A stretch of 64,000 bases of DNA from contig NZ_SZQF01000003.1 of the NCBI RefSeq assembly GCF_005869935.1, positions 1 through 64,000 of the forward strand, given 5' to 3'. Below, in pieces: positions 16,434-36,545 of the stretch (position 1 is the first letter of the stretch; every line of letters starts with the position of its first letter). Both the position numbers and the translations under genes were made by a program. The notes beneath the pieces are model-generated. The model was not told the origin of the DNA. It did not search any database and saw only the letters and a program-made list of their open reading frames with translations. The stretch comes from Winogradskyella algicola. GTDB taxonomy: Bacteria; Bacteroidota; Bacteroidia; Flavobacteriales; Flavobacteriaceae.

Positions 16434-17198
16434 TTATTTACACGTTTTGCCTTTTAGTAATTGAATAGGTTCTTGTATGTCTTCCTTTAAATTAAAAAAG
16501 TATTGTCGCTGTCTCATTTGCATACCCAAAAAAAACACAAGATTATCTTGAAATTTTATAAAATATGGGTTGGTAGGGTCGTTAGTCCAATTGATTTTAG
16601 GTAAAAAAGAAATATGTTCCTCACTAAGTTCTTTTTGCATGTAATCAACATCCTGATATCCCAATTCTGTGATAAGGTCAAAATCAAAATACCGCTTAAT
16701 TATTTCATTTCTATTTTCTTCCAGAAGGTTTATAGTGTTGTTTAAAACTGTACTGTGCTTTATCAGTCTGTTTTTTAATGTAATATCTGTGAGCAGTTTT
16801 AATTGTCCAGATGATGTTAAATCTTCAAAAGTAATGGTACTGGGCACAAAAGCGTCTTGTCTTAAGGCAATTACAAATTTATTTAGAATGCGACTTCTAT
16901 CATTTGGTATAGTGTTTAAATCTACTATTAACGCTTTGGTGAGTTTTATTTTGTTGGCTATCAACTCATAATTTTCATCAATTAACTTCTCATTAAGCAA
17001 AAAGTCATCTAATATTCTACAATAATAATCGGCTTCTGTAATTCTGTTTTTTCGGTCTTCATTCCAATTGTTAATTTGTAGCGCAATCAAAATACCAATG
17101 ACTACAAGTACAATTTCTCCGATTGCATATTTGAGATACTTCCCGGTTCTTCCTTCCGAAAGTAAGTTCTGTCTAATTTTTCTAAAGAATTTTATCAT
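16434..17198 (-). CDS. DUF6090 family membrane-anchored protein, paralog 1
   Basis: A 254-residue protein beginning MIKFFRKIRQNLLSEG, then a single membrane helix (about 24-43, YAIGEIVLVVIGILIALQIN) and a helical cytoplasmic or periplasmic domain. The N-terminal block ending NNWNE is the hallmark of DUF6090, a Bacteroidetes family of unknown function often present in several copies. It is followed upstream by a paralog at 17222-18004 with nearly the same first 50 residues, so the pair arose by tandem duplication. The C-terminal halves have diverged strongly. Confidence 0.8.
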   Translation of the reverse strand: MIKFFRKIRQNLLSEGRTGKYLKYAIGEIVLVVIGILIALQINNWNEDRKNRITEADYYCRILDDFLLNEKLIDENYELIANKIKLTKALIVDLNTIPNDRSRILNKFVIALRQDAFVPSTITFEDLTSSGQLKLLTDITLKNRLIKHSTVLNNTINLLEENRNEIIKRYFDFDLITELGYQDVDYMQKELSEEHISFLPKINWTNDPTNPYFIKFQDNLVFFLGMQMRQRQYFFNLKEDIQEPIQLLKGKTCK

Positions 17199-17221
17199 TG
17201 GCTAGCGTTGTGCTTTATTTA

Positions 17222-18004
17222 TTAGTTTTTTATTTGGCTTTCTAATACTTCAAGAATACGATTAATCCTTTTCATTAAGGTTTGGGATTCTTGATTATTA
17301 AACACATTTAGGGTTAATGCCCAAGCAACCTTACCTTCTAATTTGGAGTCTTTCAAAAGTTCATTCGTAGTCGTTGTAATAAGTTTTGATGTTCCAGGTA
17401 TGAGGTTTTTAACCTGTTTGGATTCTAACAAGTTTTTGGGTGCGTCTTTCCAATGGGTGTATGCTACATCACGCTGTATACCTACGTCATTTAGATGAGG
17501 ATAAATGCGTTGTTCACAAAATCTAAAAAACACTTGCTCTACTTCTTGAAGTTGAATCACATCAGTGCTCCAATTAACAAGTAGTTGCTTTAACGTTTCA
17601 TCTTTTAAAATTTCGATATTTCCAGAACTTACCAAGTCGTTCTGAATTGGATCAAAGGTTGGTGGTTGAATAGTACTTAAGTAAACAAGGATACTATCGC
17701 GTGTGGCATTTTCTGGGTCATCATAATAATCTAATAACTGCCTACAATTTTCAATCAAAGTATTTCTAAGTTCTATTTTATCTAGAAGTTGATTTCTATT
17801 AGATATAAATTCCTTTTCAAGCCTTTTTAATAGCGCTTGTTCTTTACTATGTTCTTTGCGTTGCTCATTCCAATTGTTAATCTGTAATGCAATTAAAATT
17901 CCGATGACTACAAGTACAATTTCTCCAACGGCGTACTTAAAGTACTTTCCAATTTTATTTTCCATAAGTAAGTTTTGGCGGATTTTTCTAAAGAATTTTA
18001 TCAT
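17222..18004 (-). CDS. DUF6090 family membrane-anchored protein, paralog 2
   Basis: A 260-residue protein with the same layout as its neighbour: MIKFFRKIRQNLLMEN, one membrane helix (about 24-43, YAVGEIVLVVIGILIALQIN), NNWNEQRK, then a mostly helical domain. It is 23 bp upstream of paralog 1 and likely shares its transcript. The start codon is 31 bp after the conserved block at 18036-18056. The family has no assigned activity. The high N-terminal conservation against a variable remainder suggests a fixed membrane module with a changing sensor or interaction part (inference). Confidence 0.8.
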   Translation of the reverse strand: MIKFFRKIRQNLLMENKIGKYFKYAVGEIVLVVIGILIALQINNWNEQRKEHSKEQALLKRLEKEFISNRNQLLDKIELRNTLIENCRQLLDYYDDPENATRDSILVYLSTIQPPTFDPIQNDLVSSGNIEILKDETLKQLLVNWSTDVIQLQEVEQVFFRFCEQRIYPHLNDVGIQRDVAYTHWKDAPKNLLESKQVKNLIPGTSKLITTTTNELLKDSKLEGKVAWALTLNVFNNQESQTLMKRINRILEVLESQIKN

Positions 18005-20384: not shown

Positions 20385-20423
20385 ATCTTTTATGTTTTAC
20401 GTTCTGCTGAAATGCACCACAAA

Positions 20424-20446
20424 GGCCTCATACAACAGCAAGTTAC
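20424..20446 (-). repeat. Conserved block upstream of the SRPBCC gene
   Basis: In gene sense it reads GTAACTTGCTGTTGTATGAG, related to the blocks at 22959-22981 (GTAACGAGCTGTACACAAG) and 22317-22338. It lies 39 bp before the SRPBCC start codon. Similarity is partial (GTAAC and GCTGT shared), so this is the weakest member. Confidence 0.4.
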
Positions 20447-20593
20447 AACATTAAAGGTAATAATTTTTAGTTAAGAACTGACGTTAGTAATTTCGAGCAG
20501 ATTCGGTTAGGCCTGACCTGAGCTTGTCGAAGGGAATACCGCTAGCAAACACATATGCGTAAATATTTTACAGTTATACATTGGCGGCAATAA

Positions 20594-22291
20594 TTATTTC
20601 TCATATACTATTTCTCCTTCTTTGATGGTTTTTAAAACCTGTATATCTTTTATATTTTCAGGATTTACTTTCAATGGGTTTTTATCTAAAATCACAAAAT
20701 CAGCGAGTTTCCCTTTTTCAAGACTTCCTTTTCTGTCTTCCTCAAAATGTTGATATGCCGACCATATGGTTATTGCCTGTAAAGCCTCGTAGGGTGATAA
20801 CCTTTCATTAGGACCAATGATTTTACCAGAACGAGAAGTCCGTTCTACTGCTGTCCACAAAACGCGCATTAAATTAGGTAGTGCAACTGGTGCATCGGTG
20901 TGAATAGTAATATCCATTCCCTTTTTTAGTGCTGTTTTTACCGGACTAATACTTTGGACTAAAGAATCACCAATAAGTTGAGTATGCCAATCTCCCCAAT
21001 AAAATGTATGCAACGGAAATAGAGAAGCAATCATTTTCATGTCTTTGGCTTCATTTAACTGGTCTTCCCTAATGTATTGCCCGTGGATAATAACATCGCG
21101 TCTGTTTTCCTTTCCGTATTTTTCTTGTAGTGGTTTCATTGTTCTAATAAATTGGTCAATTGCAGCATCTCCATTAGTATGTGCTAAAATTTGCCAATTA
21201 TTTTTAAACCCTTTTTCTAATATGGAAGTCACCACGCTATCGTTAGGTATAGCTGGGTAACCACTATAATCGTGTGGCATTCCTTGTGGCGGAATAAGAT
21301 AAGGTTCTGTTCTCCAAGCAGTTCTGCCTTGGGGCGAACCATCTAATGTAACCTTCATTCCACCTATCCTATAGTTGTTAGTATAATCTTTACTATTCCA
21401 TTTACTGTCCATGTATGCATCTACAAAGGCGTAATCTATATAGCTCACTACATCAATTTTATATAGATCCCTCTCTGCCATAGCAACTAGCATTTCATGA
21501 TTTTCCATTGCTCTCCCTTCCTGAGCCGTTGTGTATCCGTAAGACAATGCCATTTCTTGTCCGGCTTCAAAAAATCTTATCACGGCTTCCTCAGATTTGG
21601 GTGCAATAGCTTGCAGCATATACGGAATCGCAGCCAGTTCTTCTAAAACACCATTAGGTTCTGTAGAGTTGTTTTCGCGTCTTATAATGCCGCCCTCAGG
21701 ATTTTTACTGTTTTCATCAATTCCCAATTTTTCTAATCCTTTTGAGTTCACTACTGCAAAGTGTCCTGAAATGTGCGTTATCATTATTGGAAATTCTGTA
21801 CTTACTTCATCTAGATCGTGTTTAGTAGGGAACCGTTTTTCTTTTAAGATAGAATCATCAAACCCAGTACCAAAAATCCAGCCTGTCAAAGCTCTATTTT
21901 CAGGTGTATTCCATGCTTTTAGGACTGAAATTAAAGTGTTCATGTCATCAACATTGGCGTCAGGCGAAGCTAATAATTGCGCACCAATTGCCTGTGCGCC
22001 AAAATTAGCAAAATGGGCATGCCCATCAATTAATCCCGGAACGAGTGTTTTTCCTTCCAAATCAATCATATGGTGATCTTTTCCAGCAATTGTCATGGCG
22101 TCTTCACTAGAGCCAGTAAAGATTATTTTTCCGTCTTGTTCAACTATGGCTTCAACATAATTTGCCGTATCACCAACCATAGTAATAATATCACCATTAT
22201 AGTATACTGTTGAAACATTAGATTTATCAGTTTTTTCGCAGGAACTAAAAAGAGTTAGTCCTAAAACTAGAAGCAAAATTTTATTTGTCAT
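20594..22291 (-). CDS. Amidohydrolase family lipoprotein (YtcJ-like)
   Basis: About 565 residues from ATG at 22291, which begins a lipoprotein signal (MTNKILLLVLGLTLFSSC); the longer TTG frame at 22315 is less likely. It is a metal-dependent amidohydrolase of the YtcJ/TIM-barrel type: GLIDGHAHFANFG (about 89-101) gives the HxH motif, then a lysine-containing strand, and late histidines/aspartate (HTNGDAAID, ITIHTDAPVALP). C-terminal GKLADFVILDKNP is the usual urease-superfamily ending. The substrate is unknown. It is exported to the envelope by its lipobox, so it probably acts on imported or periplasmic amides. Confidence 0.85.
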   Translation of the reverse strand: MTNKILLLVLGLTLFSSCEKTDKSNVSTVYYNGDIITMVGDTANYVEAIVEQDGKIIFTGSSEDAMTIAGKDHHMIDLEGKTLVPGLIDGHAHFANFGAQAIGAQLLASPDANVDDMNTLISVLKAWNTPENRALTGWIFGTGFDDSILKEKRFPTKHDLDEVSTEFPIMITHISGHFAVVNSKGLEKLGIDENSKNPEGGIIRRENNSTEPNGVLEELAAIPYMLQAIAPKSEEAVIRFFEAGQEMALSYGYTTAQEGRAMENHEMLVAMAERDLYKIDVVSYIDYAFVDAYMDSKWNSKDYTNNYRIGGMKVTLDGSPQGRTAWRTEPYLIPPQGMPHDYSGYPAIPNDSVVTSILEKGFKNNWQILAHTNGDAAIDQFIRTMKPLQEKYGKENRRDVIIHGQYIREDQLNEAKDMKMIASLFPLHTFYWGDWHTQLIGDSLVQSISPVKTALKKGMDITIHTDAPVALPNLMRVLWTAVERTSRSGKIIGPNERLSPYEALQAITIWSAYQHFEEDRKGSLEKGKLADFVILDKNPLKVNPENIKDIQVLKTIKEGEIVYEK

Positions 22292-22316
22292 TATTTCGGT
22301 TTTAAGTAGTGCCAAT

Positions 22317-22440
22317 GGTTTAGGCTATGAGTCGTTACAAAAAAAAATTCACCATACTTATTGTATCGCGACCGAAAGATAACAAATTACAACGACACAA
22401 GCATTATATGCAAACCAGTAAAGCAATTCAGCCTCAATAG
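22317..22440 (-). repeat. Accessory-gene intergenic element D
   Basis: In gene sense it contains GGCTGAATT and AATTTGTTATCTTTCGGTCG, words also found in the 128-242 element (GGCTGAATT, AATTTGCTATCTTTAGGTTA). It ends with GTAACGACTCATAGCC (22323-22338), 25 bp before the amidohydrolase ATG. Confidence 0.6.
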
Positions 22441-22472
22441 CTTATAGCCTCTACTGTAGCGCGTTTTCATTT

Positions 22473-22934
22473 TCAAAATTCAGGAAGTCTAATGTTCAAA
22501 TAATGTGCTTCAATGAATTCAAATTGTGAAATCTCAACAGTTTGTTCGTCGCCTTCATCAGCTTTCCATTTTGTTAGAGCATAAATATTATACCCTTTTT
22601 TATTATGCATTCCAAGCGGTGAGATAGCCTTACTAAAGTCTGTCCAAATTGTTATGTCTAGCTTTTCTAATTTAGTCAAATCACAGTCATGGTTTTTAAA
22701 ATGCTCTGGCAACCAATTTAAATAATCGTTAAGTAATTGTCTGCTTGCTTTAGATTCCGCCTCTTTTGGTTTTATTTCTCTGTTTATAAAGTCAAAATTT
22801 GCTCGGTTTTCTTTTCCGATTTTATATAAATCAATAAGTACATTTACAGCAAGCCGTCCGCTTTTCATATAGTCAATACTCATAAACGAATGCGTAAAAT
22901 TGTGAATTGCCGATTTATAATTTTTGTACTTCAT
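22473..22934 (-). CDS. Hypothetical protein
   Basis: A 153-residue soluble protein, MKYKNYKSAIHNFTHSFMSI to FEFIEAHYLNIRLPEF. I do not recognise the family. Composition is normal for a folded cytoplasmic protein: mixed helices at the N-terminus, a WLPEHFKNH segment mid-way, and aromatic strands at the end. It is the first gene of the same-direction accessory block. It is preceded at 24 bp by the conserved block 22959-22981, which argues that it is a real gene of the same class as its neighbours. Confidence 0.6.
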   Translation of the reverse strand: MKYKNYKSAIHNFTHSFMSIDYMKSGRLAVNVLIDLYKIGKENRANFDFINREIKPKEAESKASRQLLNDYLNWLPEHFKNHDCDLTKLEKLDITIWTDFSKAISPLGMHNKKGYNIYALTKWKADEGDEQTVEISQFEFIEAHYLNIRLPEF

Positions 22935-23326
22935 AGGCTTTTCGCAAATGTGTTACTGCGGTCTTGTGTACAGCTCGTTACCTGTAAATTATCAATTATT
23001 GTAGAATTAGGCAACAAGTAAATTTTTTAAATTTTACTATATATCTTTTTTATACCAACGGATTTTAACCAAAGTAAATATTAAGAAACAGGCTTTAGCT
23101 ATTGTAAAATCAGGATTGTCTTAAGCCGAGAACCTCTTTTCAAAATTAGCATAAAATGACTTGCTTTTTAACTCAGTTCTTTGTTGTGTTTTCGTACTTT
23201 ATTTTCCGTTTTATTTGTAGCGTTGGAAAGGCATACTCTTTTGTAATTTTTGGCGTAGCATTGGCTGTAGTGAATTGCGAATGTGTATGATTTAGAGCTA
23301 GGGCTTGATTCATAAATATTTCATTC
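22935..23326. other. Gap with element E and a possible gene remnant
   Basis: Contains the block 22959-22981 (gene sense GTAACGAGCTGTACACAAG). A second stretch near 23000-23020 includes GTTGCCTAAT in gene sense, also found beside element A. Then there is about 200 bp of mixed sequence. No complete gene was found; a minus-strand frame near 23180-23320 is open but lacks a convincing start. This gap separates the accessory block from the defence-like operon. Confidence 0.5.
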
Positions 23327-25150
23327 TTAAACTAACCATTGCGTTAGAGTTTTTCCATCACATTCCATCGCATTTTTTAAATCAGTTTCTACAATATTGG
23401 GAACACTTCTATCTGTAAATGTTCTATTTAAAGCATTAGTAATTACTTCACAAGTATAAGGTCCTCTTAATATATCGTTCAATTTTGCATCTTGAGTGTA
23501 TGCTAATGGTGGTGAATCCGTGTCCATTGCAAAGTCAACTCCTTCTCTTGTCCATTTATTAAATGAAAATTCTGGTGTAGAAAATGAAATATCTCCATCA
23601 TTATCTATCTTATAAACATAAGTAGCAGTTACCAGTTCAGCAGTATATGAGATTGCAGGTAAAGTAATAGTGAATACTTTATTCTTTTCGATTACAACCT
23701 CTCTTTTTGGTAATTCAATTTTTTGTAAATCATCTATAACTTTAAAAGCAGCTTCTATGTCATTTTTATAAATTGGACTTTCAATATCATCGTGCGACAT
23801 TGGATTTAACAATACAGTTTTATATGTTTTTAGTCCATCAATTATTGAGTCTGGAATTTCTATTTCTAAATCTTTATAATATTCCTTTAAACGATTTATT
23901 AATGTATCCAATTTTGGTGGTTTTAAAAGACCTTTTACTTCCTCACTTAACGTATGTGTTTCAGGTAGTTTTTCTTTAAGCGTTTTTTCTAAAACTTTAC
24001 GTAAAGAATTGGCAGCAGCTGGATAGTCATAACTATTTTTATATAGTTCAGCTTTTTGTATTTCAGTTTTTACTTTGTCGTTAATTTCTGGACCATTTAC
24101 ACCTTTATAAAATTCAAGAAATTTCCAATTGGTTAGCTGTACTTTTGCGACTTCATACCAATGCCTATCATAAGTTGTAATGAATATTTGAAACTGCTCA
24201 AATTCTGGCTCTTTTAAAAGTTTTATGAGTTTTAAACGATGCTCATTGTCTAATCCGATTAGTATATCATCTAGAAATAGAATTTTAATTTCTTCCGAAA
24301 ATCTAGACTGTCTCAATATTGCAGCTAAAAAAATACTTATTGCAATTGCAGAAAGTTTAGCCTCATTCAAAGCGAAATGAGGATAATGACTATCTAAAGA
24401 AGTACCATCACTTTCAATATTTAATAAAATCTTACTTTGTGATATTCCGCCCCATTGATTTACTTGAATCGTATGTCTATTGAACTCTATTTTTAGATCA
24501 GGAACTAATTTTTCTAAAACTTTATTAACTGCTGGTGCTAAATAATCAGGATTACCACTTAAAAAGAGTTTATTTAAAGCATTATTAAATGATAATGCTT
24601 TGCGTTCAACAGAAGCCTTTTTTTGTCTATGCTGATTAAAATCTTTACCTCTTCCTACTGTTTTTTTACTTTCTTCTAAAACATCTTTCCACAATTCACC
24701 CAATTCAATTCCACCTGTAATTGTTTGAGATTTAAAATGCTTTAGAACTCCATTAATAATTAAGTTAAAAACATTAAGTTCATCTTTCAATTTTACGTTG
24801 TGAACTCCTAATAAATGTTTGTATGTGATAAAACTTTTTAATCTATTACAGTCCGTGATTGAAGCTGTATTTGTAGTCTTTGTACTTTCATTTAATGTAA
24901 ATTTTGCATTACCATCAAACTCAACTTCAATAGCACAATCTGTTTGTCCATCAGTTAAATAAAGGTTTCGCAAATTTGCCATATTGATATTTTCAACACT
25001 AGATTGAAAAAAATCCTTTAGGGCATAATACACGGAACTTTTACCACTTCCATTTTCTCCATAAATAAAAACGTTTTTTCCACTCACAGCAATATTTTCA
25101 GACCGTTGAAATGCTTTGTATTTATTTATGGTTAGGTTTTGGATTTTCAT
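23327..25150 (-). CDS. SMC/RecF-like AAA ATPase of the defence-like operon
   Basis: A 607-residue protein. Walker A GENGSGKSS is at 31-39 after an N-terminal KIQNLTINKYKAF strand typical of RecF/SMC-like ABC ATPases. A signature-like LNEAKLSAIAIS (about 261-272) is followed by Walker B ILFLDDILIGLD (290-301) and a switch-His region (FITTYDRHWY). No long coiled coil was seen. The C-terminal 250 residues start with a helical segment (SYDYPAAANSLRKVLEKTLK) and have no recognised domain. Similar ATPases act with nucleases in Septu and Gabija systems. It is the last gene of the operon, 1 bp after the DUF262-HNH gene. Confidence 0.82.
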   Translation of the reverse strand: MKIQNLTINKYKAFQRSENIAVSGKNVFIYGENGSGKSSVYYALKDFFQSSVENINMANLRNLYLTDGQTDCAIEVEFDGNAKFTLNESTKTTNTASITDCNRLKSFITYKHLLGVHNVKLKDELNVFNLIINGVLKHFKSQTITGGIELGELWKDVLEESKKTVGRGKDFNQHRQKKASVERKALSFNNALNKLFLSGNPDYLAPAVNKVLEKLVPDLKIEFNRHTIQVNQWGGISQSKILLNIESDGTSLDSHYPHFALNEAKLSAIAISIFLAAILRQSRFSEEIKILFLDDILIGLDNEHRLKLIKLLKEPEFEQFQIFITTYDRHWYEVAKVQLTNWKFLEFYKGVNGPEINDKVKTEIQKAELYKNSYDYPAAANSLRKVLEKTLKEKLPETHTLSEEVKGLLKPPKLDTLINRLKEYYKDLEIEIPDSIIDGLKTYKTVLLNPMSHDDIESPIYKNDIEAAFKVIDDLQKIELPKREVVIEKNKVFTITLPAISYTAELVTATYVYKIDNDGDISFSTPEFSFNKWTREGVDFAMDTDSPPLAYTQDAKLNDILRGPYTCEVITNALNRTFTDRSVPNIVETDLKNAMECDGKTLTQWLV

Positions 25151-25151
25151 A

Positions 25152-26549
25152 TTAACTCACTTTTGCACCTTTAGATTGATTATGATGAGCACATAATAAC
25201 TCTCCGTTTTCTAAAATAGTCTGACCTCCTTTAGCGTGTGGAAAAACGTGGTCAGCTTGATAATTAGACCAACTTACTCTTGCTTCTTTTTCGGGTTTAC
25301 CTTCACGTAGGCACTCCTGACATAATCCTTTACCATCACGATAAATTATGATTCTTTGTAACTCTGAAAAGGCTCTATTTTCATCTTTTTCTTTTAACTC
25401 AAAAAGGTTATCTTTTAAATACTCGAAAAAGATTTGTCTCATAATTCTATCTCTGACTTCTAAATCGTGTTCTCCTTGTTGTCTACGATTACTAAACGTC
25501 AACATATCGGTATCTTCAGAATCTTCGTAAGTTTTCCAACGCGTATGAAAAGCATAAATAAATTCACGAACTATATTTTTGGTATCATTATCTAATACAT
25601 AATGCATTCTTAAATGACGAATGAGCATATATACAGAAATGATGAAATACTCTACTGAAAACTCTTTTATGCCGTTTTTATCGTCTAACATTGGGTCATC
25701 TTTAAAAATATCGTAGAATACTTTTAAATTTTTGCGTACCGCAACAGCTTCATTATTATTCTCGAAAGTATAATCTCCTATACCATTTGATGTTTTGGCT
25801 TCTTCAATAAACTCTGTTATTTTTTTATCGCCTAATTCGGCATAACCACCATTTTTTTCAATAAGAAGAAACCTCGCCATAAATTGTAAATGCTTCATTC
25901 TATCATTATCTACATTCAATAGTTTGAAAAATGGCATTTTATCTGGATTACTATCTATTGGCTCGTATTTGTTATAATCAAAGGTTAAGTCATCAGCATA
26001 TTTTACTATAAAATTTCTACTTAAACTTGATAATTGCGCGTGTGCAACTTCCATATAGTTTAAGGTTTCGCCTTGTTGTAACCTCCAAAAAATCTCGGTA
26101 GCAATAATTTGGTGGTTTACATTATTTGGTTCATCGATATTTAAAATAACATCGGCTTGGTAGGTTAAGGATCTATCAATAAATTTTCGGACTTCTGAAT
26201 TAAGGTCTTTGTAATATTTACCTGCAATACCTTCACCTAAATCTGCCAATGTTTTTGGTAATTTGTATTTGTTTTCAAAGAACTCCTGTACCGTAGTAAT
26301 TCGTTGTTGGCCATCTACAATTTCATTAACTGTACGGTCATCACTTAATCGTACTCTGCGAATAACTAACTTGGGGATATAATATCGCCTAAACAAACTA
26401 TCCATTAGGGCTTGTTTCTTTTTTACCTTCCATACTGCTTTACGTTGGTATGGTGGTCTTGTTACAAACTCATCTTTGTATTTATGAAAATCTTCTATAG
26501 GAAAACTTTCCTGAACTATTGTATATTCTGTCTTTGGATTAAATGCCAT
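25152..26549 (-). CDS. DUF262 protein with C-terminal HNH nuclease
   Basis: A 465-residue protein. The N-terminal DUF262 domain has PPYQRKAVW (32-40) and the nucleotide-sensing motif DGQQR (79-83) in IVDGQQRITTVQEFF. The C-terminus is an HNH domain: CQECL (about 411), then YQADHVFPHAKGG, then LLCAHHNQSKGAK. DUF262 with a nuclease is the layout of GmrS/GmrD and SspE, which restrict DNA according to its modification state. It is 7 bp after the methylase gene and 1 bp before the ATPase gene. It is the likely nuclease effector of the operon (inference). Confidence 0.87.
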   Translation of the reverse strand: MAFNPKTEYTIVQESFPIEDFHKYKDEFVTRPPYQRKAVWKVKKKQALMDSLFRRYYIPKLVIRRVRLSDDRTVNEIVDGQQRITTVQEFFENKYKLPKTLADLGEGIAGKYYKDLNSEVRKFIDRSLTYQADVILNIDEPNNVNHQIIATEIFWRLQQGETLNYMEVAHAQLSSLSRNFIVKYADDLTFDYNKYEPIDSNPDKMPFFKLLNVDNDRMKHLQFMARFLLIEKNGGYAELGDKKITEFIEEAKTSNGIGDYTFENNNEAVAVRKNLKVFYDIFKDDPMLDDKNGIKEFSVEYFIISVYMLIRHLRMHYVLDNDTKNIVREFIYAFHTRWKTYEDSEDTDMLTFSNRRQQGEHDLEVRDRIMRQIFFEYLKDNLFELKEKDENRAFSELQRIIIYRDGKGLCQECLREGKPEKEARVSWSNYQADHVFPHAKGGQTILENGELLCAHHNQSKGAKVS

Positions 26550-26556
26550 TGTTTAA

Positions 26557-29500
26557 TTATTTTAATGCCTCTCTAATTATACGTACCTCTTCTATACTAT
26601 CTAGGGTTTCTATAGCAAAGCGTACAGGATGATCTGGATGATACAACCGCTCATACTCGCTTTGTATAATACCCAACTTTTCTTCTTCACTCATACTATC
26701 ATTTATAGGTTTGAGGTCTGAAAGGTGTTTTAAAATGAATTTGTTTGTAGACTTAAACTCATTTGGTAAAAACAGTTCAAAAGATGTGGCATCTAGCGCA
26801 AGTTCGAAGAAATTAAAAACTTCCACATATGCATTTTTAAACTTGCTTACAAAACTCAAATAATCAACAATAATACTAATGTTTATTTGCTCTTCATTAC
26901 CTGTCTCTGGCACATATAGCTTTCTCACATTTTTAGGTTTAACTTCAGCAAAAGTTCTTCCACCTTCCTGTGAAAATTTATCATACAAAAACGCGTTTAC
27001 TGTTGAATTAAGAATAGATAAAATGTACTCATACGATAAACTACATTCACTTTTCTTCTTAAAAACCAATATGCTGTTTAAAACATAATAACTTTCATCA
27101 TCAAATACAGCTTTGATAGAATCAGAAGTTTGACGCATAATAATTTTAGGCTCCTCAAATAATTCTGGATATCTCTGACGACCTAAAGCAAACCAAGGTA
27201 AAGTCCCAGATTTAGATTCACTTCTAGTCATTAATTTATCTTTAAATGAAAGTAAATAATCCTTAATATTTGGATAATTATCAATTTCTACACTTCTATT
27301 GGTATAAATCAAAATATTTTGACTGTTTTCTATTTTATACTTATTTATTTCACCTCCTTTGAGTACTTTCTTTAAAATACCATCTTCAAATTGATTCTCT
27401 TTGGCAAAATCAGTTTTAATCCTAAAAATTTTATCACCACCAGTTGAGATACCACTTGCCATTTCTTCTGCAATATCATCAATTGTTACAGATACGCTTT
27501 TTAATTTTTTTATTATTTCAAACTCACTTTCACTAATACCAAAAACAGAAGCAGGAACTTGTAATGTTGAACTGACTGTTGTTTTCGAAAATATAGATTT
27601 AAAATCTAAATTCTTCTTATCAGCATTTCTTAAATCGGCATACTTATAACTATAGCTTCGACTATCCTTTGTTGTTAAAAAGATACAAGAAGGTACTGTA
27701 GCAGTATTAAATACACCATCTCCCAAATTAATTCCTATATGGAATGAGTTTTTGTTTAAAAGTAGCTTTCGTGTTTTTTCATATTCAGACTGAAACAATA
27801 AATTATTAGGTACGATGAAGTTTATAACTCCATCTTCCTTCAACAATCTTAAACCATTAGAAATAAAATAGTTGAAAGTATCAGGTGTTCTCATATGAAC
27901 ATCTGAATATTGGTTTTTAAATAATACTTTTTCCTCCTTTGTTAATTTTGCTCCATATGGTGGATTTGCTATCACTGCATCAAAACCACCTTTTTCACGC
28001 CATACTTCAGAAAAGAAGAGTTTAAAATCAAAGTCAATCTTGTATCCAGCAAAGGTTTCAGCGGTATCTAAAAGCTCTCTTATTTTTGTGTTTATCTTGT
28101 TCCGTAATGTTTTTTTACGTTGCTCATTGGTAACTGCGTAAAACTCTTCCTTTAAAGTTTCTAACTCTTTTTCAACCTCTAAATCTCGCATTGTACCATC
28201 TGGCATACCAATTAACGAATTACCACACACAATTTTATAATCGAGGTTTGGTAACGTTTCTATAGGTTCTAAATCGTCTTCGTCTACCACTAAAGAGAGC
28301 CATAAACGTAAACGCGCAATATCTATAGCAGAGCGGTCTATATCTACCCCATAAATACTTTCTTGTATAATGTGCTTTTTTAAGCGGTACACATAACGGC
28401 TTTCGCTTACGCTCTCTCGTTCGTGAAATTCAAATTCTTTTAATTTATTATTTAGGTAATTGTAACTTAAATGTGGTTTTAATATTAATTGCGCTGTTAC
28501 CAACTCGTGCAACAAACCCACAGGAAATGCCCCAGAACCAATAGCAGGATCGCAAATGCGTATTTCGGTTAGTTTTTTATCTATAACATCGGCATTATTA
28601 CGTACACTTTCTGGCAGTAAGAATTTATAGGTTTTGGTTTCGCCACGTTCTGCCACACGCACATCGTTTTCTAATGCTAAATGCCCCTCGCGTATGTATT
28701 GTTCTATATCTTCTTTGGGCACAATAATTTCATTGGTTTCAGCTTGTATGGTTTGTTGCCCTGTTTTTCCTTGATTTCCAAACATATTTGTTTGGTCATC
28801 TCCCAATTCTTGGTAAGTGTTATTGTAATTATTTAATGCATTATCTAAATAATGTATTAAGCTTTCTTGACACATATAATGTACAATTTCACGAGGTGTG
28901 TAGAACGCTCCTTTACTTTTTCGTTCTTTAATCTCCAACATATTTTCAAAGACTTTCCCTAGCATTTCTGGGTCAACTGCTACTTCTTTATCAAGAGGCT
29001 CGTCTTCTTTAATGGTAAAATTGTAACGGTCAAACACATCGAGAATACCCGTTCCTATATCTCCAGATTTGTTTTTCTCATTGTTACGGAATAAATCTGT
29101 AGGAATACTAATGTTGGCGTTTTGCCAATCGTATTGCGCTTCAAAAAGCCCCCCATTTAAAAATGGAATACGACAGTTAAAACGTGGGTAAAACGAATTG
29201 TCGTTATCGCGCTCTTTGGCCAATGCTTCATAAAATAAATATTGTAAATAGTCTTTAAAGAAGTTTTTGTTTTTTTCTAAAGACTCATCAAAAAGTTGTT
29301 GCAGAAAGTGTCTTTTACCAGCACCCCATCTTTCATTTTTAGGTACACCTAACCAACCTTTTTTCTGCAAGAAGTATAAGAATACTATTTGACCTAATAA
29401 CTTTTTAGTAAAGCCTGACGCATCTAATTGGCTGTCTTGAAAAATAGATAAATCTTGTTTTTCAAAATACTCATAGACTTTAATGTATAAGCTTTTGTAT

Positions 29501-30105
29501 TGTTCAAAAAACTCATCGGTTACACGCTCTATACTAAACGCTTTTTCTAACTCTGAAATAGTTGGGTTATTCGCAATATTTTGTAAAAGCGGTAATAATT
29601 GCGTTTTTGCGGTATGCGATTTCTCGTATTTACCAACTAGAAAAGAATAACGTTTTGCAGGTGTAAACTCCTTACGCATCTTCACTTTTTGCTTTTCTTC
29701 ATCTAAATAGGATTGATGTTCCATTTTTATGAAAGAAAAACGCCAGTCGAACCCTTCGTCTTCTTTAGAGTAAAATGCCACTAAAGCATAGTCTTTCTCA
29801 AAATTGTTAAGATGCTTAATCACAAAGTTTCTCAATGCTGTCCTTGCTCTTTCCAGTTTAGAGACATTTTTTACTTGAACAATCAAGACATCTAAAGCTT
29901 CGCCTTCTGGATCTATATATTTACCAATGCGTTTGTAGTAGCTTACGTGGTCGCGTTGGTCTTCCCAAATTGTATTACCACTTGCTTTGTATGGTTTTAT
30001 TTCAAAATCGTTCAATAAGTTCTGAATGAAGTTCGTAAACCTCGCTTCATCAAATGCTTTATTAAAGGTTTTATCTATGAGATTAATCGCAGAATTTTTA
30101 TCCAT
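26557..30105 (-). CDS. Eco57I/PglX-like adenine-specific DNA methylase
   Basis: An 1182-residue protein. An N-terminal helical/nuclease-like part (with LDVLIVQVKNVS, about 71-82) precedes SKGAFYTPREIVHYM (about 397-411), motif I DPAIGSGAF (519-527), YGVDIDRSAIDIARLRLWL, and motif IV NPPY (714-717). A C-terminal TaqI-like specificity region starts near 880. This matches type IIG/PglX-type N6-adenine methylases. The D...QVK segment could be a weak PD-(D/E)xK site, but the match is poor, so separate cutting by the HNH neighbour is more likely. It sits 2 bp after the helicase gene. Confidence 0.87.
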   Translation of the reverse strand: MDKNSAINLIDKTFNKAFDEARFTNFIQNLLNDFEIKPYKASGNTIWEDQRDHVSYYKRIGKYIDPEGEALDVLIVQVKNVSKLERARTALRNFVIKHLNNFEKDYALVAFYSKEDEGFDWRFSFIKMEHQSYLDEEKQKVKMRKEFTPAKRYSFLVGKYEKSHTAKTQLLPLLQNIANNPTISELEKAFSIERVTDEFFEQYKSLYIKVYEYFEKQDLSIFQDSQLDASGFTKKLLGQIVFLYFLQKKGWLGVPKNERWGAGKRHFLQQLFDESLEKNKNFFKDYLQYLFYEALAKERDNDNSFYPRFNCRIPFLNGGLFEAQYDWQNANISIPTDLFRNNEKNKSGDIGTGILDVFDRYNFTIKEDEPLDKEVAVDPEMLGKVFENMLEIKERKSKGAFYTPREIVHYMCQESLIHYLDNALNNYNNTYQELGDDQTNMFGNQGKTGQQTIQAETNEIIVPKEDIEQYIREGHLALENDVRVAERGETKTYKFLLPESVRNNADVIDKKLTEIRICDPAIGSGAFPVGLLHELVTAQLILKPHLSYNYLNNKLKEFEFHERESVSESRYVYRLKKHIIQESIYGVDIDRSAIDIARLRLWLSLVVDEDDLEPIETLPNLDYKIVCGNSLIGMPDGTMRDLEVEKELETLKEEFYAVTNEQRKKTLRNKINTKIRELLDTAETFAGYKIDFDFKLFFSEVWREKGGFDAVIANPPYGAKLTKEEKVLFKNQYSDVHMRTPDTFNYFISNGLRLLKEDGVINFIVPNNLLFQSEYEKTRKLLLNKNSFHIGINLGDGVFNTATVPSCIFLTTKDSRSYSYKYADLRNADKKNLDFKSIFSKTTVSSTLQVPASVFGISESEFEIIKKLKSVSVTIDDIAEEMASGISTGGDKIFRIKTDFAKENQFEDGILKKVLKGGEINKYKIENSQNILIYTNRSVEIDNYPNIKDYLLSFKDKLMTRSESKSGTLPWFALGRQRYPELFEEPKIIMRQTSDSIKAVFDDESYYVLNSILVFKKKSECSLSYEYILSILNSTVNAFLYDKFSQEGGRTFAEVKPKNVRKLYVPETGNEEQINISIIVDYLSFVSKFKNAYVEVFNFFELALDATSFELFLPNEFKSTNKFILKHLSDLKPINDSMSEEEKLGIIQSEYERLYHPDHPVRFAIETLDSIEEVRIIREALK

Positions 30106-30107
30106 AA

Positions 30108-33100
30108 TTAACTGTTGGTAATATATCCTGAAAGAATCACTTCTCTTTTTTGGAACTTATTATTATTTTGTTTGTTGATATCCATTCTAATACGTCCATA
30201 CTTTCTTAATACCTGTAAAACGTGCAATGGCTCAATAACTTTCTCTAATTCTTTTTTGACGATTTGGGCAGTCTTTTTCGCCATTTTGCCTTCTTTGAGC
30301 GTGGTTTTTGCAGCTGTAATAAACTCTTCGTCTGTTTCTGTGAAACCTTTGAAATTTTTAAATAGCTTATCTTTTATGATGCGGTCTTCGATATATTTTG
30401 CGTTTGAGCGACCTCTATTTCCGCCTGTTTCTTCTTTTGCAGTAGTGTCGAGCGTGAATTTAGCTCTGTTTGTTTGCAACATATTGAAGAAATTATCTGG
30501 CACTTTTCCTCTTGGTGTTTCAGGCTTACATTCCAATTTGTGAACAGCGTCAAAGAAAGTAGCTTCATCAGATTTTCCATTTTCAAATTGATAGAACTTT
30601 TTAAGTTTACCAATTCTAAAAAATGTTATCATTTTCTGAAATTCTAATTCTTTATTTACAAAACCACTTCGTGCTTTTTTTGGAAGGTTTTTAATTCGTT
30701 CAAATAAATCAGGATTATTATCTCGAATTTCTCTAATGATTTCTAAATACTTTAATTCAGAATCACCAACTTCATCTTCACCAGAATATGCTTTTTTATT
30801 ATTCAACGTATTAAAAAGCTCTTGACTACCAAATTCTTCACCATCACTTAAATATTTGGCATCTTCTCCTAAAATATCGTGAAACATTTGAATTTTGTTT
30901 GTGATATTTATTTCTAAACCTAAATGAGCATCAGAATGTGTTGTTGGAAAAAAGTTGTAGATATATACAAACGGGAAGGAACTTCCTAAACGATTAACAC
31001 GTCCAGCACGTTGTAAAACTCTGGTTGGATTCCAAGGTAAATCATAATTTACAAGCACATTTGAGCGATGCAAGTTGATACCTTCCGCTAAAACATCGGT
31101 TGTAATTAATAGCCTAATGTCACTAACTTGGTCTTTCTTTTTGCGATTTGGGTCAAAGTTGCACTGAATTATATCTCTAGAAACATTTTGATTTGATAAA
31201 AGTGTTTTATTACTATGTCTTCCACCAAGGCTAGAGAAAAACATTACTTGTTCTGGAAATTCCTCTATCAAAGCTTCATATAAATAATCGCCAGTTTCTT
31301 TGGATTCTGTAAAGATTACAAGCTTGTTCTTTTTTAAAATTTTATCTGTTTTAAGTTCATTAATAAAGGTTTCTAATTTTGGGTCTTCATTTACAGTTGC
31401 CCAAACATCTCTTATGTATTCAAGAATTAATAAGTCTTTATTTAATTTATCTATATAGTTTTTAGTAAAATCTTCTGATTTGTATTTATGTGCTTTATCT
31501 TCATTGACTAACTCTTCTAATTTATATATATCATCATTTTCTAATAAGTCATAAACATTTACTTTTTTACTGACATAAATCGTCCCAGACTTATACATAT
31601 CAATAAAATTCTCGTAAGATTGAATAAATCGACCAATACTCATTTTGAAAGCGTGAAAACTACTTTCTAATCGTTTTACCAATATACCTTTCATAAAGCC
31701 ACCAACGTTGCGTTGTTGTTGCTTTTCAAATTCAGAAAGTTGTTTGTTTCCTTTATAAAACAATAATGGCGTATAACGAGCGTATGTAAATTCCAGAAGC
31801 TGTTGAATTGTAGATTTAAAAATTTGCTCTAAATTTCCTTCGTATTGATATACAATTTTATTTGGGTCATTTAGAGTAGGGAAGACCAATCCTTGTTTTT
31901 GCATATCATTTTTAAAGTAAGTCATTACATCGTTACGAGTTCGTCTCACCATTACATAACGCAACACATTGTTCCGAATATCGTCTGAAATTTCTTTTAT
32001 AAGTTGTTTGTATTCTGGTTCTGCTTTATCTACTTTGTTAAGACGTGTTCTTAATCCTGCAAAATATTTTTCAAGATTTGGAACTCCAGGAATAGTAGAG
32101 TTTTTTGGCGATTGAAACAGTTTTAATTGAGCGAAAATATCGTTGATTGTATTGTTAAGTGGTGTTGCAGTTACTAGAATTACTTTTTTGTTAGTACAAA
32201 TCTCTAACAAATCTGCATAGGCTTGTGTTCCTTCATTTCTGAATCTATGTGCTTCATCAACTACTATATAATCATAACGTTCTGTTCCTTTTTTTAGAAT
32301 GTGAGGTAATTTACCTAGTGATTCAACTTCAAAACTTCTAATTCCAAAATCAAATAGCGAATCTTTCCAGTAATCTTTTAAAACTGGCGGACAAATCACA
32401 AGTGTTCGTCCAATTAATTGTTGAAGTAATAAAGCTGTAATAAATGTTTTACCCAAACCTACTACATCAGCTAAAAACACACCATTATATCTTTCTAATA
32501 TTTTTTTAGATTGGATTGCAGCTTGACTTTGGTATTTAAGTTTCATAAAACCATCAGGTAAAAATGGGTCGAACTCATCTTCAAGGTTTATGTCTTCTTC
32601 TAAATATTCATATATTAATTTAAGATATAGTTCGTAAGGTGAAATATTTTCGCTTAACCAAGTTTTCTTTTCTATTGTATCAATAAAGTCTTCTGAAATA
32701 TCTACAGATTCAGCCCATAATTTGTTGAATTGGTCTTCTGCGAAAAGTACGTCTCGCTTTGTTCTTAACTCAACATTAAATTCGCGATTAGCAATTAAAC
32801 CTGATTCAGAAAAGTTACTAGAACCTGTAATTACAAAGCCATAATCTCTATCATCAGGCTTGAATTTCCCGATATAAACTTTGGCGTGAATATTTTTTGA
32901 AGGATAAGCTCTTATCTCTAATTTTTTTCCATTTCCGTGATATGCTTTGTCAATTTCTGGGTCTTGGCATTCTGTATTCAAAAACTCAATAAACTTTTTA
33001 ATTCCTAATTCAAGTTTATCTTCATTCTCATTTGCATCTTCAATTTCTTCTTTTAGATTTTTTTGATATACTTTTTTCGTTCTTTGATGAGATTCCAAGT

Positions 33101-33353
33101 CCATCATTGACATTAGTTCATTGTATGCAATGATGTCATATGAATCTTTATCGACATTAAGACCAACTAATATTCTGATTTTTTCAAGTGGTTCAAGTGA
33201 TTCATAAATTCTATGGAAACCACTCATTCTAAAATAACCAACTAAAACATCAAAGAGTTGGGTATCTCGCAAAGTGGATTTGAATCTACTCAAAAGGCTG
33301 TGTCCTTCTTCGTTTGTAAAAAATGTTAAGTCTGTTTGGTCTATGTTTGACAT
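30108..33353 (-). CDS. PLD-like helicase (SNF2 type)
   Basis: A 1081-residue protein. The N-terminal phospholipase-D-like domain has HxK at 156-158 (IHAKVYIG) and GSSNFSESGL at 177-186 with downstream Asn/Glu, a single HKD-like half-site. The SNF2-type helicase has Walker A (ADVVGLGKT, 295-303), DEAH (366-369), TATPLN (about 395-400), LAEGINLHRSN (755-765) and motif VI QRAGRVNRLG (781-790). It is the first long gene of the operon, 17 bp after a small regulator. PLD-helicases occur near methylases in several anti-phage islands and may translocate on or degrade foreign DNA. Confidence 0.87.
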   Translation of the reverse strand: MSNIDQTDLTFFTNEEGHSLLSRFKSTLRDTQLFDVLVGYFRMSGFHRIYESLEPLEKIRILVGLNVDKDSYDIIAYNELMSMMDLESHQRTKKVYQKNLKEEIEDANENEDKLELGIKKFIEFLNTECQDPEIDKAYHGNGKKLEIRAYPSKNIHAKVYIGKFKPDDRDYGFVITGSSNFSESGLIANREFNVELRTKRDVLFAEDQFNKLWAESVDISEDFIDTIEKKTWLSENISPYELYLKLIYEYLEEDINLEDEFDPFLPDGFMKLKYQSQAAIQSKKILERYNGVFLADVVGLGKTFITALLLQQLIGRTLVICPPVLKDYWKDSLFDFGIRSFEVESLGKLPHILKKGTERYDYIVVDEAHRFRNEGTQAYADLLEICTNKKVILVTATPLNNTINDIFAQLKLFQSPKNSTIPGVPNLEKYFAGLRTRLNKVDKAEPEYKQLIKEISDDIRNNVLRYVMVRRTRNDVMTYFKNDMQKQGLVFPTLNDPNKIVYQYEGNLEQIFKSTIQQLLEFTYARYTPLLFYKGNKQLSEFEKQQQRNVGGFMKGILVKRLESSFHAFKMSIGRFIQSYENFIDMYKSGTIYVSKKVNVYDLLENDDIYKLEELVNEDKAHKYKSEDFTKNYIDKLNKDLLILEYIRDVWATVNEDPKLETFINELKTDKILKKNKLVIFTESKETGDYLYEALIEEFPEQVMFFSSLGGRHSNKTLLSNQNVSRDIIQCNFDPNRKKKDQVSDIRLLITTDVLAEGINLHRSNVLVNYDLPWNPTRVLQRAGRVNRLGSSFPFVYIYNFFPTTHSDAHLGLEINITNKIQMFHDILGEDAKYLSDGEEFGSQELFNTLNNKKAYSGEDEVGDSELKYLEIIREIRDNNPDLFERIKNLPKKARSGFVNKELEFQKMITFFRIGKLKKFYQFENGKSDEATFFDAVHKLECKPETPRGKVPDNFFNMLQTNRAKFTLDTTAKEETGGNRGRSNAKYIEDRIIKDKLFKNFKGFTETDEEFITAAKTTLKEGKMAKKTAQIVKKELEKVIEPLHVLQVLRKYGRIRMDINKQNNNKFQKREVILSGYITNS

Positions 33354-33370
33354 ATTTATTTTTAATCTAT

Positions 33371-33568
33371 CTAAAGTTCAGTTCTTTCAATTATTAATTC
33401 TTTGACACCAACATTTAAGATTTCCGCAATCTTTTACAAGTCCTCCAAACTTGGCTGGCGTTTGTTTTGGGCATAAGAGTGTACCATATTGTAGCTCTTT
33501 CCAAGTTGTTCAGCCAACCAGATTTGTTTTATTCCTTTCTGTTCTAAAACCTCTTTTATTCGGTTCAT
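33371..33568 (-). pseudogene. XRE-type regulator with an in-frame TAA
   Basis: From ATG at 33568 the frame gives MNRIKEVLEQKGIKQIWLAE, a helix-turn-helix with QLGKSYNMVHSYAQNKRQPS, then LEDL and a TAA at 33434-33436. The same frame resumes with KIAEILNVGVKELI and ends at TAG 33371-33373 (65 codons overall). XRE regulators of this type have a Tyr or similar residue at the TAA position (L-Y-K-I-A), so one base change made the stop. The truncated product keeps the whole helix-turn-helix. It sits 17 bp before the helicase start and is the likely controller of the operon. Confidence 0.75.
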
Positions 33569-33709
33569 TTTGAACCTTGCTTTATTAAAGTTGAAAGATA
33601 ACAAAGTTCATTAAATAATAATCAAAATATTCATTGTGTTGTAAGAAATGAAGTCTTAAATAAAGCCATGCACATGTCATTCAAATACATGCCGCAGATA
33701 AAAATCTCT

Positions 33710-33733
33710 AGTCCTGCTTCGGTAGGACTTTTT
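33710..33733 (+). terminator. Orphan intrinsic terminator
   Basis: AGTCCTGC-TTCG-GTAGGACT followed by TTTTTT. It is a strong UUCG-loop hairpin on the plus strand, with no plus-strand gene in the preceding 2 kb. It could belong to a small RNA or to a gene lost when the island was inserted. Confidence 0.6.
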
Positions 33734-33741
33734 TATGCCAG

Positions 33742-33787
33742 CAACACCCAAAACCCAAAACCCAACACCCAACACCCAACACCCAAA
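33742..33787 (+). repeat. Heptad ACCCAAC/ACCCAAA tandem repeat
   Basis: About six consecutive 7-bp units: two ACCCAAA, then ACCCAAC units, then ACCCAAA. It is a C/A-rich microsatellite with no coding role seen. Confidence 0.8.
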
Positions 33788-35486: not shown

Positions 35487-36545
35487 ATGATTTTACAACA
35501 AAGAATTAACGCTTTCTCAAAATTAGGGCATTTTTTAAGCCAGTTTACCACCAAGGGTATCCAAAAGGATGATACTGTACAAGCCAACGATCTTTTTTTT
35601 GAGGGCTTTAAACACCAAATAAAACTAGCGAAAGAACACAACGGTTGGTTTACTGAGGCTAACGTATACTTTAGTTTAGAGTCTTGGGCACATGCCTTAA
35701 CTACCAAAAATATAAACCAATGGACAAGGGCTTATAATTTTGAAACTATAGAACCTAAGACGGTTGGTATTATTATGGCTGGTAACATCCCTCTGGTTGG
35801 TTTTCATGACTTTTTATCAGTACTTATTTCTGGCCATAATGTATTGGTAAAACAATCCTCTAACGACAAGCACCTCCTGCCCTATCTAGCTAAGTATCTC
35901 GAAGTTGTAGAACCTGGCTTTAAAGGGAAAATTACCTTTACGCAAGATAAACTAGAAAACTTTGATGCTGTTATAGCCACAGGTAGCGATAATACAGCAC
36001 GCTATTTTGAGTACTACTTTAGAAACAAACCGTCCATCATTAGAAAGAACAGAAATTCGGTAGCGATACTCAATGGCAACGAGTCTAAAGAAGATTTAGA
36101 AGCCTTGTCTGATGATATCTTTAGATATTACGGATTGGGGTGTAGAAATGTATCAAAACTATTTGTACCTAAAGACTATAATTTTGATGCGTTTTTTAAT
36201 GCAGTTTACAAATGGCATCCTGTGATCCATGAAGCAAAATACGCCAATAACTATGATTACAACAAGGCTGTCTACTTAATGAGCGAATTTGATATGCTAG
36301 AGAATGGCTTTTTAATGATAAAGGAAGATAAAAGCTATGCCTCTCCCATTGCCACTGTATTTTACGAATATTATGAAAGTAAAGAAAATCTAAAAAATAA
36401 ATTAGAAGAAGAGCATGACAAGATTCAATGTGTAGTTGCAAATGGTTTTATCAAAAATGAAATTGCTTTTGGGCATACCCAAAAACCAGATCTTTGGGAT
36501 TATGCAGATGCTGTTAATACTGTTGAATTCTTGTTAAAAATTTGA
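35487..36545 (+). CDS. Acyl-CoA reductase (LuxC-like)
   Basis: A 352-residue protein of the aldehyde-dehydrogenase-like LuxC/acyl-CoA reductase family, predicted to reduce fatty acyl-CoA or acyl-protein thioesters to aldehydes with NADPH. Family blocks include VGIIMAGNIPLVGFHDFLSV (about 92-111), ATGSDNTARYFEYYF (about 165-179) and YGLGCRNVSKLFVP (about 212-225), which contains the probable catalytic cysteine. It is somewhat shorter than marine LuxC proteins. No luciferase or luxE gene is near, so bioluminescence is not implied. serC starts 114 bp downstream with an apparent gap promoter, so they may be separate. Confidence 0.85.
   Translation: MILQQRINAFSKLGHFLSQFTTKGIQKDDTVQANDLFFEGFKHQIKLAKEHNGWFTEANVYFSLESWAHALTTKNINQWTRAYNFETIEPKTVGIIMAGNIPLVGFHDFLSVLISGHNVLVKQSSNDKHLLPYLAKYLEVVEPGFKGKITFTQDKLENFDAVIATGSDNTARYFEYYFRNKPSIIRKNRNSVAILNGNESKEDLEALSDDIFRYYGLGCRNVSKLFVPKDYNFDAFFNAVYKWHPVIHEAKYANNYDYNKAVYLMSEFDMLENGFLMIKEDKSYASPIATVFYEYYESKENLKNKLEEEHDKIQCVVANGFIKNEIAFGHTQKPDLWDYADAVNTVEFLLKI

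Follow-up and report, generated by a model that had tools for sequence, protein, structure and literature searches.

The stretch of DNA analysed here (hereafter, the window) comprises positions 1 to 64,000 of contig NZ_SZQF01000003.1 of Winogradskyella algicola (GCF_005869935.1), and in the region 23327..33568 it carries a putative defence operon of helicase, methylase, nuclease and ATPase genes. As judged from homologous loci, these four genes are not a fixed four-gene system; the conserved unit is the helicase together with the methylase. The operon consists of four minus-strand open reading frames (ORFs), separated by gaps of 2, 7 and 1 bp, in the following order of transcription: an HKD(PLD)-SNF2 helicase, predicted to be a motor-nuclease (30108..33353; 1081 aa; Pfam PLDc_2, SNF2-rel_dom and Helicase_C); an Eco57I-family adenine methylase with its own target-recognition domain (26557..30105; 1182 aa; Pfam Eco57I, N6_Mtase and TaqI_C); a DUF262-HNH nuclease, which appears to be an exchangeable cassette (25152..26549; 465 aa; Pfam GmrSD_N (DUF262) and HNH); and a RecF/SMC-like ABC ATPase, apparently an optional partner of the core (23327..25150; 607 aa; Pfam SMC_N). 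An earlier interpretation of the window (the sequence-only reading) had described this single-strand operon with the same gaps, and the ORF coordinates bear it out; its view that this is a defence-type operon holding a methylase and a motor is also supported.

The evidence for the two-gene unit comes from 35 loci that were fetched by the helicase alone, without reference to the HNH gene. Seven of them were taken from the 8 of 249 family genomes that matched at E<=1e-60, 27 from the 29 of 395 phylum genomes that matched at E<=1e-100, and one from the 5 of 395 order genomes that matched at E<=1e-100; these tallies overlap and include the window's own genome, and G688 (a contig end) and a second G535 fragment were not fetched. 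The helicase is followed by a methylase gene within the same-strand run in 34 of the 35 loci (41 of 42 when all helicase-bearing loci are counted), the sole exception among the 35 being L080, in which the methylase lies past a larger gap. The RecF-like ATPase, whole or fragmentary, was found in 13/35 loci and the DUF262-HNH family in 0/35, with five of these contigs (L077, L078, L087, L089 and L098) stopping in or just after the methylase, which is itself a fragment in L077, L087 and L098, so that the sequence downstream of the methylase is unseen in them. These frequencies argue that the unit is the helicase plus the methylase, that the ATPase is a frequent companion and that the HNH gene is a local addition.

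The HNH family was also searched for in its own right. At E<=1e-60, it was found in 2/249 family genomes and 1/395 phylum genomes (the window's genome being counted), and no match at E<=1e-40 was present in 72,556 plasmid records, among which the helicase had matches of <60% identity only, in 10 records. Seven of the 24 HNH-fetched loci hold the helicase (L002, L003, L004, L006, L007, L009 and L024), and each of these also holds the methylase, HNH and ATPase genes. The window gene order without extra genes was seen in L002, L007 and L006, the helicase of the last running off the contig. L003 and L004 have the same four genes with extra genes, L009 has a changed order and L024, in which the helicase is likewise truncated at a contig end, has several insertions; in L003, in-frame splits affect the helicase, the methylase and the ATPase. 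Thus, the four-gene set put forward by the sequence-only reading is rarely together, and what stands of it is the helicase-methylase pair, which is regularly together.

The place beside this core is taken by different genes in different loci. In L035, McrB and McrC lie between the methylase and the ATPase, where the window has the HNH gene, and the helicase of L035 shares 89% identity with its counterpart in the window, 97% with the one in L002 and 98% with the one in L004, the latter two loci carrying HNH. The methylase and ATPase genes are adjacent or overlapping in L084, L036, L039 and L040. In L003 and L004, a DUF4062 gene and a HATPase_c_4 gene, the latter resembling the Schlafen/AlbA protein of L037, precede the HNH gene, and three ORFs lie between the methylase and HNH in L003. 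Other guests are located between the helicase and the methylase, including a YhcG/DUF1016 nuclease (L088, L090 and L093 by Pfam, L098 by clustering), KilA-N (L038), Schlafen/AlbA (L037) and NYN (L083), or after the methylase, such as a KAP NTPase (L085 by Pfam, L086 by clustering) and HerA (L091). Such a distribution shows, at the level of gene content, that the slot beside the helicase-methylase core is exchangeable and that the HNH gene behaves as a cassette.

Synonymous divergence (dS), estimated by a simple Nei-Gojobori procedure in which values above ~1.5 are near saturation, points in the same direction. Between the window and L002, dS was 1.95 for the helicase, 0.12 for HNH and 1.56 for the ATPase (1.95 and 0.12 derive from synonymous differences at proportions of 0.69 and 0.11, respectively), and neighbouring genes thus differ by a more than 10-fold spread; between the window and L006, the corresponding values were 0.54, 1.44 and 0.25. 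In 200-base bins, identity changes by several steps near gene borders and also inside the methylase, at the recognition domain. The modules therefore show discordant histories in these comparisons, and HNH has a synonymous-divergence history of its own.

Both core proteins appear to retain the residues on which a restriction-modification (RM) function would depend. In the helicase, H156, K158, N180, GLGKT (299-303), D366, E367 and H369 are unchanged in 11/11 aligned rows; its best PADLOC match is C3a139 'HKD+Snf2' (177 bits), and its PDB profile matches include 7clg, which we take to be SauUSI and which spans the PLD and helicase regions. The NPPY motif of the methylase (714-717) is unchanged in 12/12 aligned rows, REase_MTase_IIG is matched in PADLOC with 726 bits over residues 1-956, and the best PDB match (185 bits) is 7lni, presumably CamA. 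At the N-terminus, the close clade of methylases has a PD-(D/E)XK-like motif with D72 and K79 unchanged in 7/7 close rows.

Residues 1-717 of the methylase are 97% identical between the window and L002, and residues 725-1080 only 27%, as expected if the recognition domain had been exchanged. Among 21 pairs, the identity of the recognition region was 22-37% in 20 (55% in L006/L007), compared with 65-97% for residues 1-717. These alignments show the recognition domain to be exchangeable. Two features of ATP-dependent RM systems are accordingly found together, namely, an intact methylase motif with a variable recognition domain, and a motor and nuclease in one operon (PLDc_2 plus SNF2/Helicase_C, with unchanged motifs).

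A separate observation concerns four distant helicase-methylase loci, L041 (8201-12719), L095 (10867-14575), L097 (5314-9268) and L099 (5312-9469), in which an inverted methylase-like fragment follows the methylase (the match in L095 being weak, 38 bits) and a resolvase-type gene is present (Pfam Resolvase in L041, by clustering in the others). Inverted repeats of 62 nt (100% identity), 30 nt (93%), 128 nt (only 74%) and 314 nt (95%) were found in these loci, and switching of the recognition domain via DNA inversion looks possible there.

The DUF262-HNH protein matches PF03235 (DUF262), the N-terminal domain of GmrSD, with 61.7 bits at a cut-off of 33.2. Its DGQQR motif (79-83) and D433, H434, N448 and N457 are unchanged in 19/19 rows, with 77% mean column identity; the alignment contains the window and 18 of the 25 HNH loci (24 fetched by HNH plus L042), L003, L004, L020, L021, L023, L025 and L042 being the loci not aligned. 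DUF262 with DGQQR and an HNH-superfamily nuclease are shared with GmrSD and BrxU; unlike in those proteins, the nuclease here is of the PF01844 type, the family is distinct and tightly conserved, and the host operon is of the HKD-SNF2/methylase kind. NsnA (78 bits) and PD-T4-2_A (49 bits) are among its best PADLOC matches and are also matched by the distant member L017; these matches cover the DUF262 part, not HNH, and the literature search found no paper on NsnA. In the ATPase, the Walker A motif GENGSGKS and D294-D295 are unchanged in 11/11 rows, and its PDB matches include Rad50/SMC proteins.

Copies of the HNH protein, 55-98% identical to that of the window, occur in Bacteroidota, Proteobacteria, Chloroflexi, Firmicutes and candidate phyla, the phylum of some named genera being the one to which we presume they belong. 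RM genes are few per genome, and an RM gene lies no more than three intervening ORFs from HNH in at least 15/25 loci (unclustered ORFs of <120 aa being left out of the neighbour listing): seven of them contain the core described here, and eight contain other RM types. The latter comprise a DUF7149-type Eco57I enzyme (L005 and L019), an MmeI-like Eco57I enzyme (L042, whose methylase that of L008 resembles), a C5 methylase (L011), Mrr (L012), EcoO109I with a methylase (L016) and a ResIII+Eco57I fusion (L013), which we take to be type ISP-like. HNH lacks this ATPase in 17/24 HNH loci, some of them on short contigs. Viral contigs yielded 117 HNH relatives, of which 80 were kept; with a best-segment identity of only 26-43%, these do not belong to the family. 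Two neighbourhoods may be mentioned on their own account: in L019 (4371-5558), a RelA/SpoT-domain protein lies between the DUF7149-type methylase and the HNH gene, and in L010 (4352-6733), the HNH gene has a pair of adjacent GmrSD_N (DUF262) genes at a distance of ~3 kb, oriented opposite to it.

Taken as a whole, the data make us lean towards a modular ATP-dependent RM locus in which HNH is a plug-in backup nuclease. The methylase would find its motif through the C-terminal target-recognition domain and place N6-methyladenine (m6A) on host DNA. Judging from its domains and invariant residues, the HKD-SNF2 protein would translocate along unmethylated DNA that the methylase has engaged, its HKD domain making the cut, and the RecF/SMC-like ATPase may be an optional helper, probably in DNA bridging or sensing. 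The DUF262-HNH protein would be a plug-in nuclease, probably GmrSD/BrxU-like and nucleoside triphosphate (NTP)-dependent, cutting base-modified phage DNA that defeats the core RM enzyme, as suggested by its motifs, its replacement by McrBC and its varied RM partners.

Several observations weigh against this picture. McrBC occupies exactly the HNH slot in one locus (L035), that of L086 being located further downstream, and the 13 ATPases include two that are fragmentary (L074 and L076). The D...(Q/E)xK motif at the methylase N-terminus is lost in four distant rows, where K is absent. The HNH protein ends in PF01844 HNH and has no match at E<=0.001 to DUF1524, the C-terminal nuclease of GmrSD, and its fold prediction is poor (mean predicted local distance difference test score, pLDDT, of 64.6), of low confidence and not used. 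Regarding the separate histories, identity in L004 falls inside the ATPase gene rather than at its border, and when the window is set against L007 and L009, all four genes are saturated or nearly so at their synonymous sites, which would hide any discordance. Finally, the count of 15/25 RM neighbours stands without a formal control, and no RM neighbour was seen in 10/25 HNH loci, not every neighbour having been run against Pfam; among these ten, HNH is split in frame in L020 and L023, lacks the HNH domain in L021 and is a contig-end fragment in L025.

Could HNH instead be a guard of the RM enzyme? PrrC and RloC have been proposed as guards beside type I RM systems, and HNH, with or without the ATPase, might likewise be a suicidal backup that is held inactive by the RM enzyme and freed when a phage blocks it. 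Its position beside different RM systems would fit such a role, as would the Schlafen/AlbA, NYN and YhcG proteins among the guests of the core elsewhere and the fact that L020, L021 and L023, which belong to the ten copies with no RM neighbour seen, are broken, although assembly error is possible. We nevertheless consider this unlikely: a guard usually needs specific contact with its partner, yet a single, well-conserved family adjoins unrelated enzymes; whole solitary copies exist (e.g., L015, L018 and L022); and the replacement by McrBC favours a sensor of DNA modification.

It is quite improbable that the four genes form an obligate system in which HNH and the ATPase cut in a Septu-like manner while the methylase marks self, which is how the sequence-only reading had understood them. 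The tight operon and the same order in L002, L006 and L007 (with insertions in L003 and L004) are in its favour, but the absence of HNH from all 35 loci obtained through the helicase (five of which break off within or directly behind the methylase), the presence of the ATPase in only 13 of these, the occurrence of HNH without this ATPase in most HNH loci, the McrBC replacement in L035 and the separate dS history of HNH all contradict it. A Septu assignment was rejected as such: PADLOC PtuA matches reach at most 27 bits (mostly the P-loop), HNH has no PtuB match at E<=0.001, and it travels independently.

The similarity of the proteins to parts of other known systems raises the question of whether the locus is a branch of DISARM, of the BREX-related (BR; DUF499/Hma) systems or of MADS. 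The helicase matches DrmD (117 bits) and HmaA (82 bits); the methylase matches DrmMI (92 bits), PglX (76 bits) and mad2 (52 bits); and the best PADLOC match of the ATPase is mad3 (36 bits). Type-2 BR systems consist of an HKD-Snf2 helicase, an N6-MTase and a DUF499 ATPase (PMC12839542), and thus an HKD-Swi2/Snf2 helicase, an N6-MTase and an ATPase in one locus are shared; the ATPase here is of the RecF/SMC type. DUF499 (PF04465) had 0 matches in the W. algicola genome (control matches in 1/14 genomes). Hma has a helicase-methylase-ATPase make-up (PMC8565338), and this assignment was rejected since HmaC is a DUF499 ATPase (PMC12839542). DISARM class 1 shares the DrmD and DrmMI matches, whereas the operon contains no further DISARM gene, and the DrmB-type MZB/DUF1998 model (PF09369) had 0 matches in the genome (control matches in 8/14 genomes), in agreement with the earlier argument that without DrmB this is not DISARM. 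PglZ, stated earlier to be absent, has indeed no match among the six proteins scanned; the genome does contain one PglZ-domain protein, located on another contig and fused to a response-regulator domain, which is therefore not evidence of BREX. BrxC is not among the PADLOC matches listed for the operon proteins, no genome-wide search for it having been made. MADS was set aside, the only matches being the weak ones to mad2 and mad3, with no search made for other MADS genes. Given these results and 23 NCBIfam matches of the operon proteins that are all far below the cut-offs, we regard membership in any of these branches as very improbable.

Three further comparisons may be added. Type IIG/Eco57I RM enzymes share a single-chain adenine methylase with its own recognition domain; in contrast to them, a separate HKD-SNF2 helicase is present in the operon, and the N-terminal nuclease motif is partly kept. 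SauUSI shares the PLD + SF2 helicase architecture (7clg match; enzyme in PMC12707154) but works on its own as a modification-dependent enzyme and carries an SRA domain, whereas the helicase here is paired with a methylase. The CxC ABC-ATPase/PbeABCD loci share an HKD+SF2 helicase, an ABC ATPase and, at times, methylases (PMC10853773); here, the four window genes have no small DndE-like gene between them, and the PbeC match is only 19 bits. As for Ssp/Dnd phosphorothioation, the PAPS-reductase-like DndC had 0 matches in the W. algicola genome, the model passing its cut-off in 0/14 controls (5 below it), and SspD was not searched for apart.

The operon occupies a variable site (20408..33742, no strand assigned). 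Among 41 sampled genomes of the genus, G984 shows the highest similarity in the flanking gene 35487-36545 (94%), and in it, the same flanks (window ~20408 and 33742) enclose a Cas9-type gene (RuvC_III+HNH_4), a HIRAN protein and Cas1. In the relatives L192-L194, the compared stretch gave a match to the right flank only, L192 also having relatives of left-side genes; the claim of alternative cargo therefore rests on G984, and the comparison shows such cargo in this one relative. Two observations were made in the vicinity of the site. In L191 (11669-15540), from the closest genus member found, the gene of a 156-aa HIRAN protein has a 4-bp overlap with the end of the Cas9-type gene, an arrangement that resembles a single operon. 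To the left of the variable site, two adjacent window genes (16434-18004) are alike, one with a DUF6090 match, and relatives of them occur at five places in the corresponding stretch of L192. Upstream of the operon, a small minus-strand ORF (33371..33568), labelled as an XRE-type regulator by inspection of the sequence and not by a family search, is broken by an in-frame stop; its start codon is the annotated end 33568, and L002, L003 and L035 have intact copies of it ahead of their helicase genes. Promoter-like sites numbered 46 (50.4 in shuffles) and terminator-like sites 8 (4.4, standard deviation 2.1, in shuffles), neither of which was used for any reading. A CRISPR-repeat-like pattern had 0 matches in the window.

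The principle of a second nuclease lodged in a defence locus is already known from several precedents: the BrxU gene is inserted between brxC and pglX (PMC8565348); RloF lies between hsdS and hsdR in type I loci, and RM genes and SMC_N are enriched near GmrSD/DUF262 (PMC4619093); the McrBC locus is swapped for a GmrSD homologue in some E. coli (PMC12707154); McrBC occurs together with DISARM-like systems and methylases (PMC11090510); auxiliary nucleases, HNH among them, are present in BREX and BR loci (PMC12839542); and DUF262 is part of several defence systems (PMC10952713). In the open-access literature searched, as far as its accessible text extends, no description was found of this operon, of this core with this HNH family, of the range of RM partners of the family or of HNH as an RM plug-in. 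A broader proposal, which we offer only tentatively, is that the cassette position between methylase and ATPase in HKD-SNF2/methylase loci takes interchangeable nucleases and that DUF262-HNH could be a universal, RM-agnostic plug-in, a single and highly conserved protein backing type II, IIG, ResIII-Eco57I and HKD-SNF2 RM systems in several phyla and acting on the DNA marks by which phages evade every one of these systems.

The guess of a new four-gene system thus gives way to a modular picture, in which the RM motor is stable and both the recognition domain and the second nuclease can be swapped. L035 with McrBC and L004 with HNH, whose helicases are 98% identical, would form a natural matched pair for the contribution of the second nuclease, and the HNH family, which is spread over phyla and repeatedly neighbours RM enzymes of unrelated kinds, makes a good candidate for a type IV specificity that is new.

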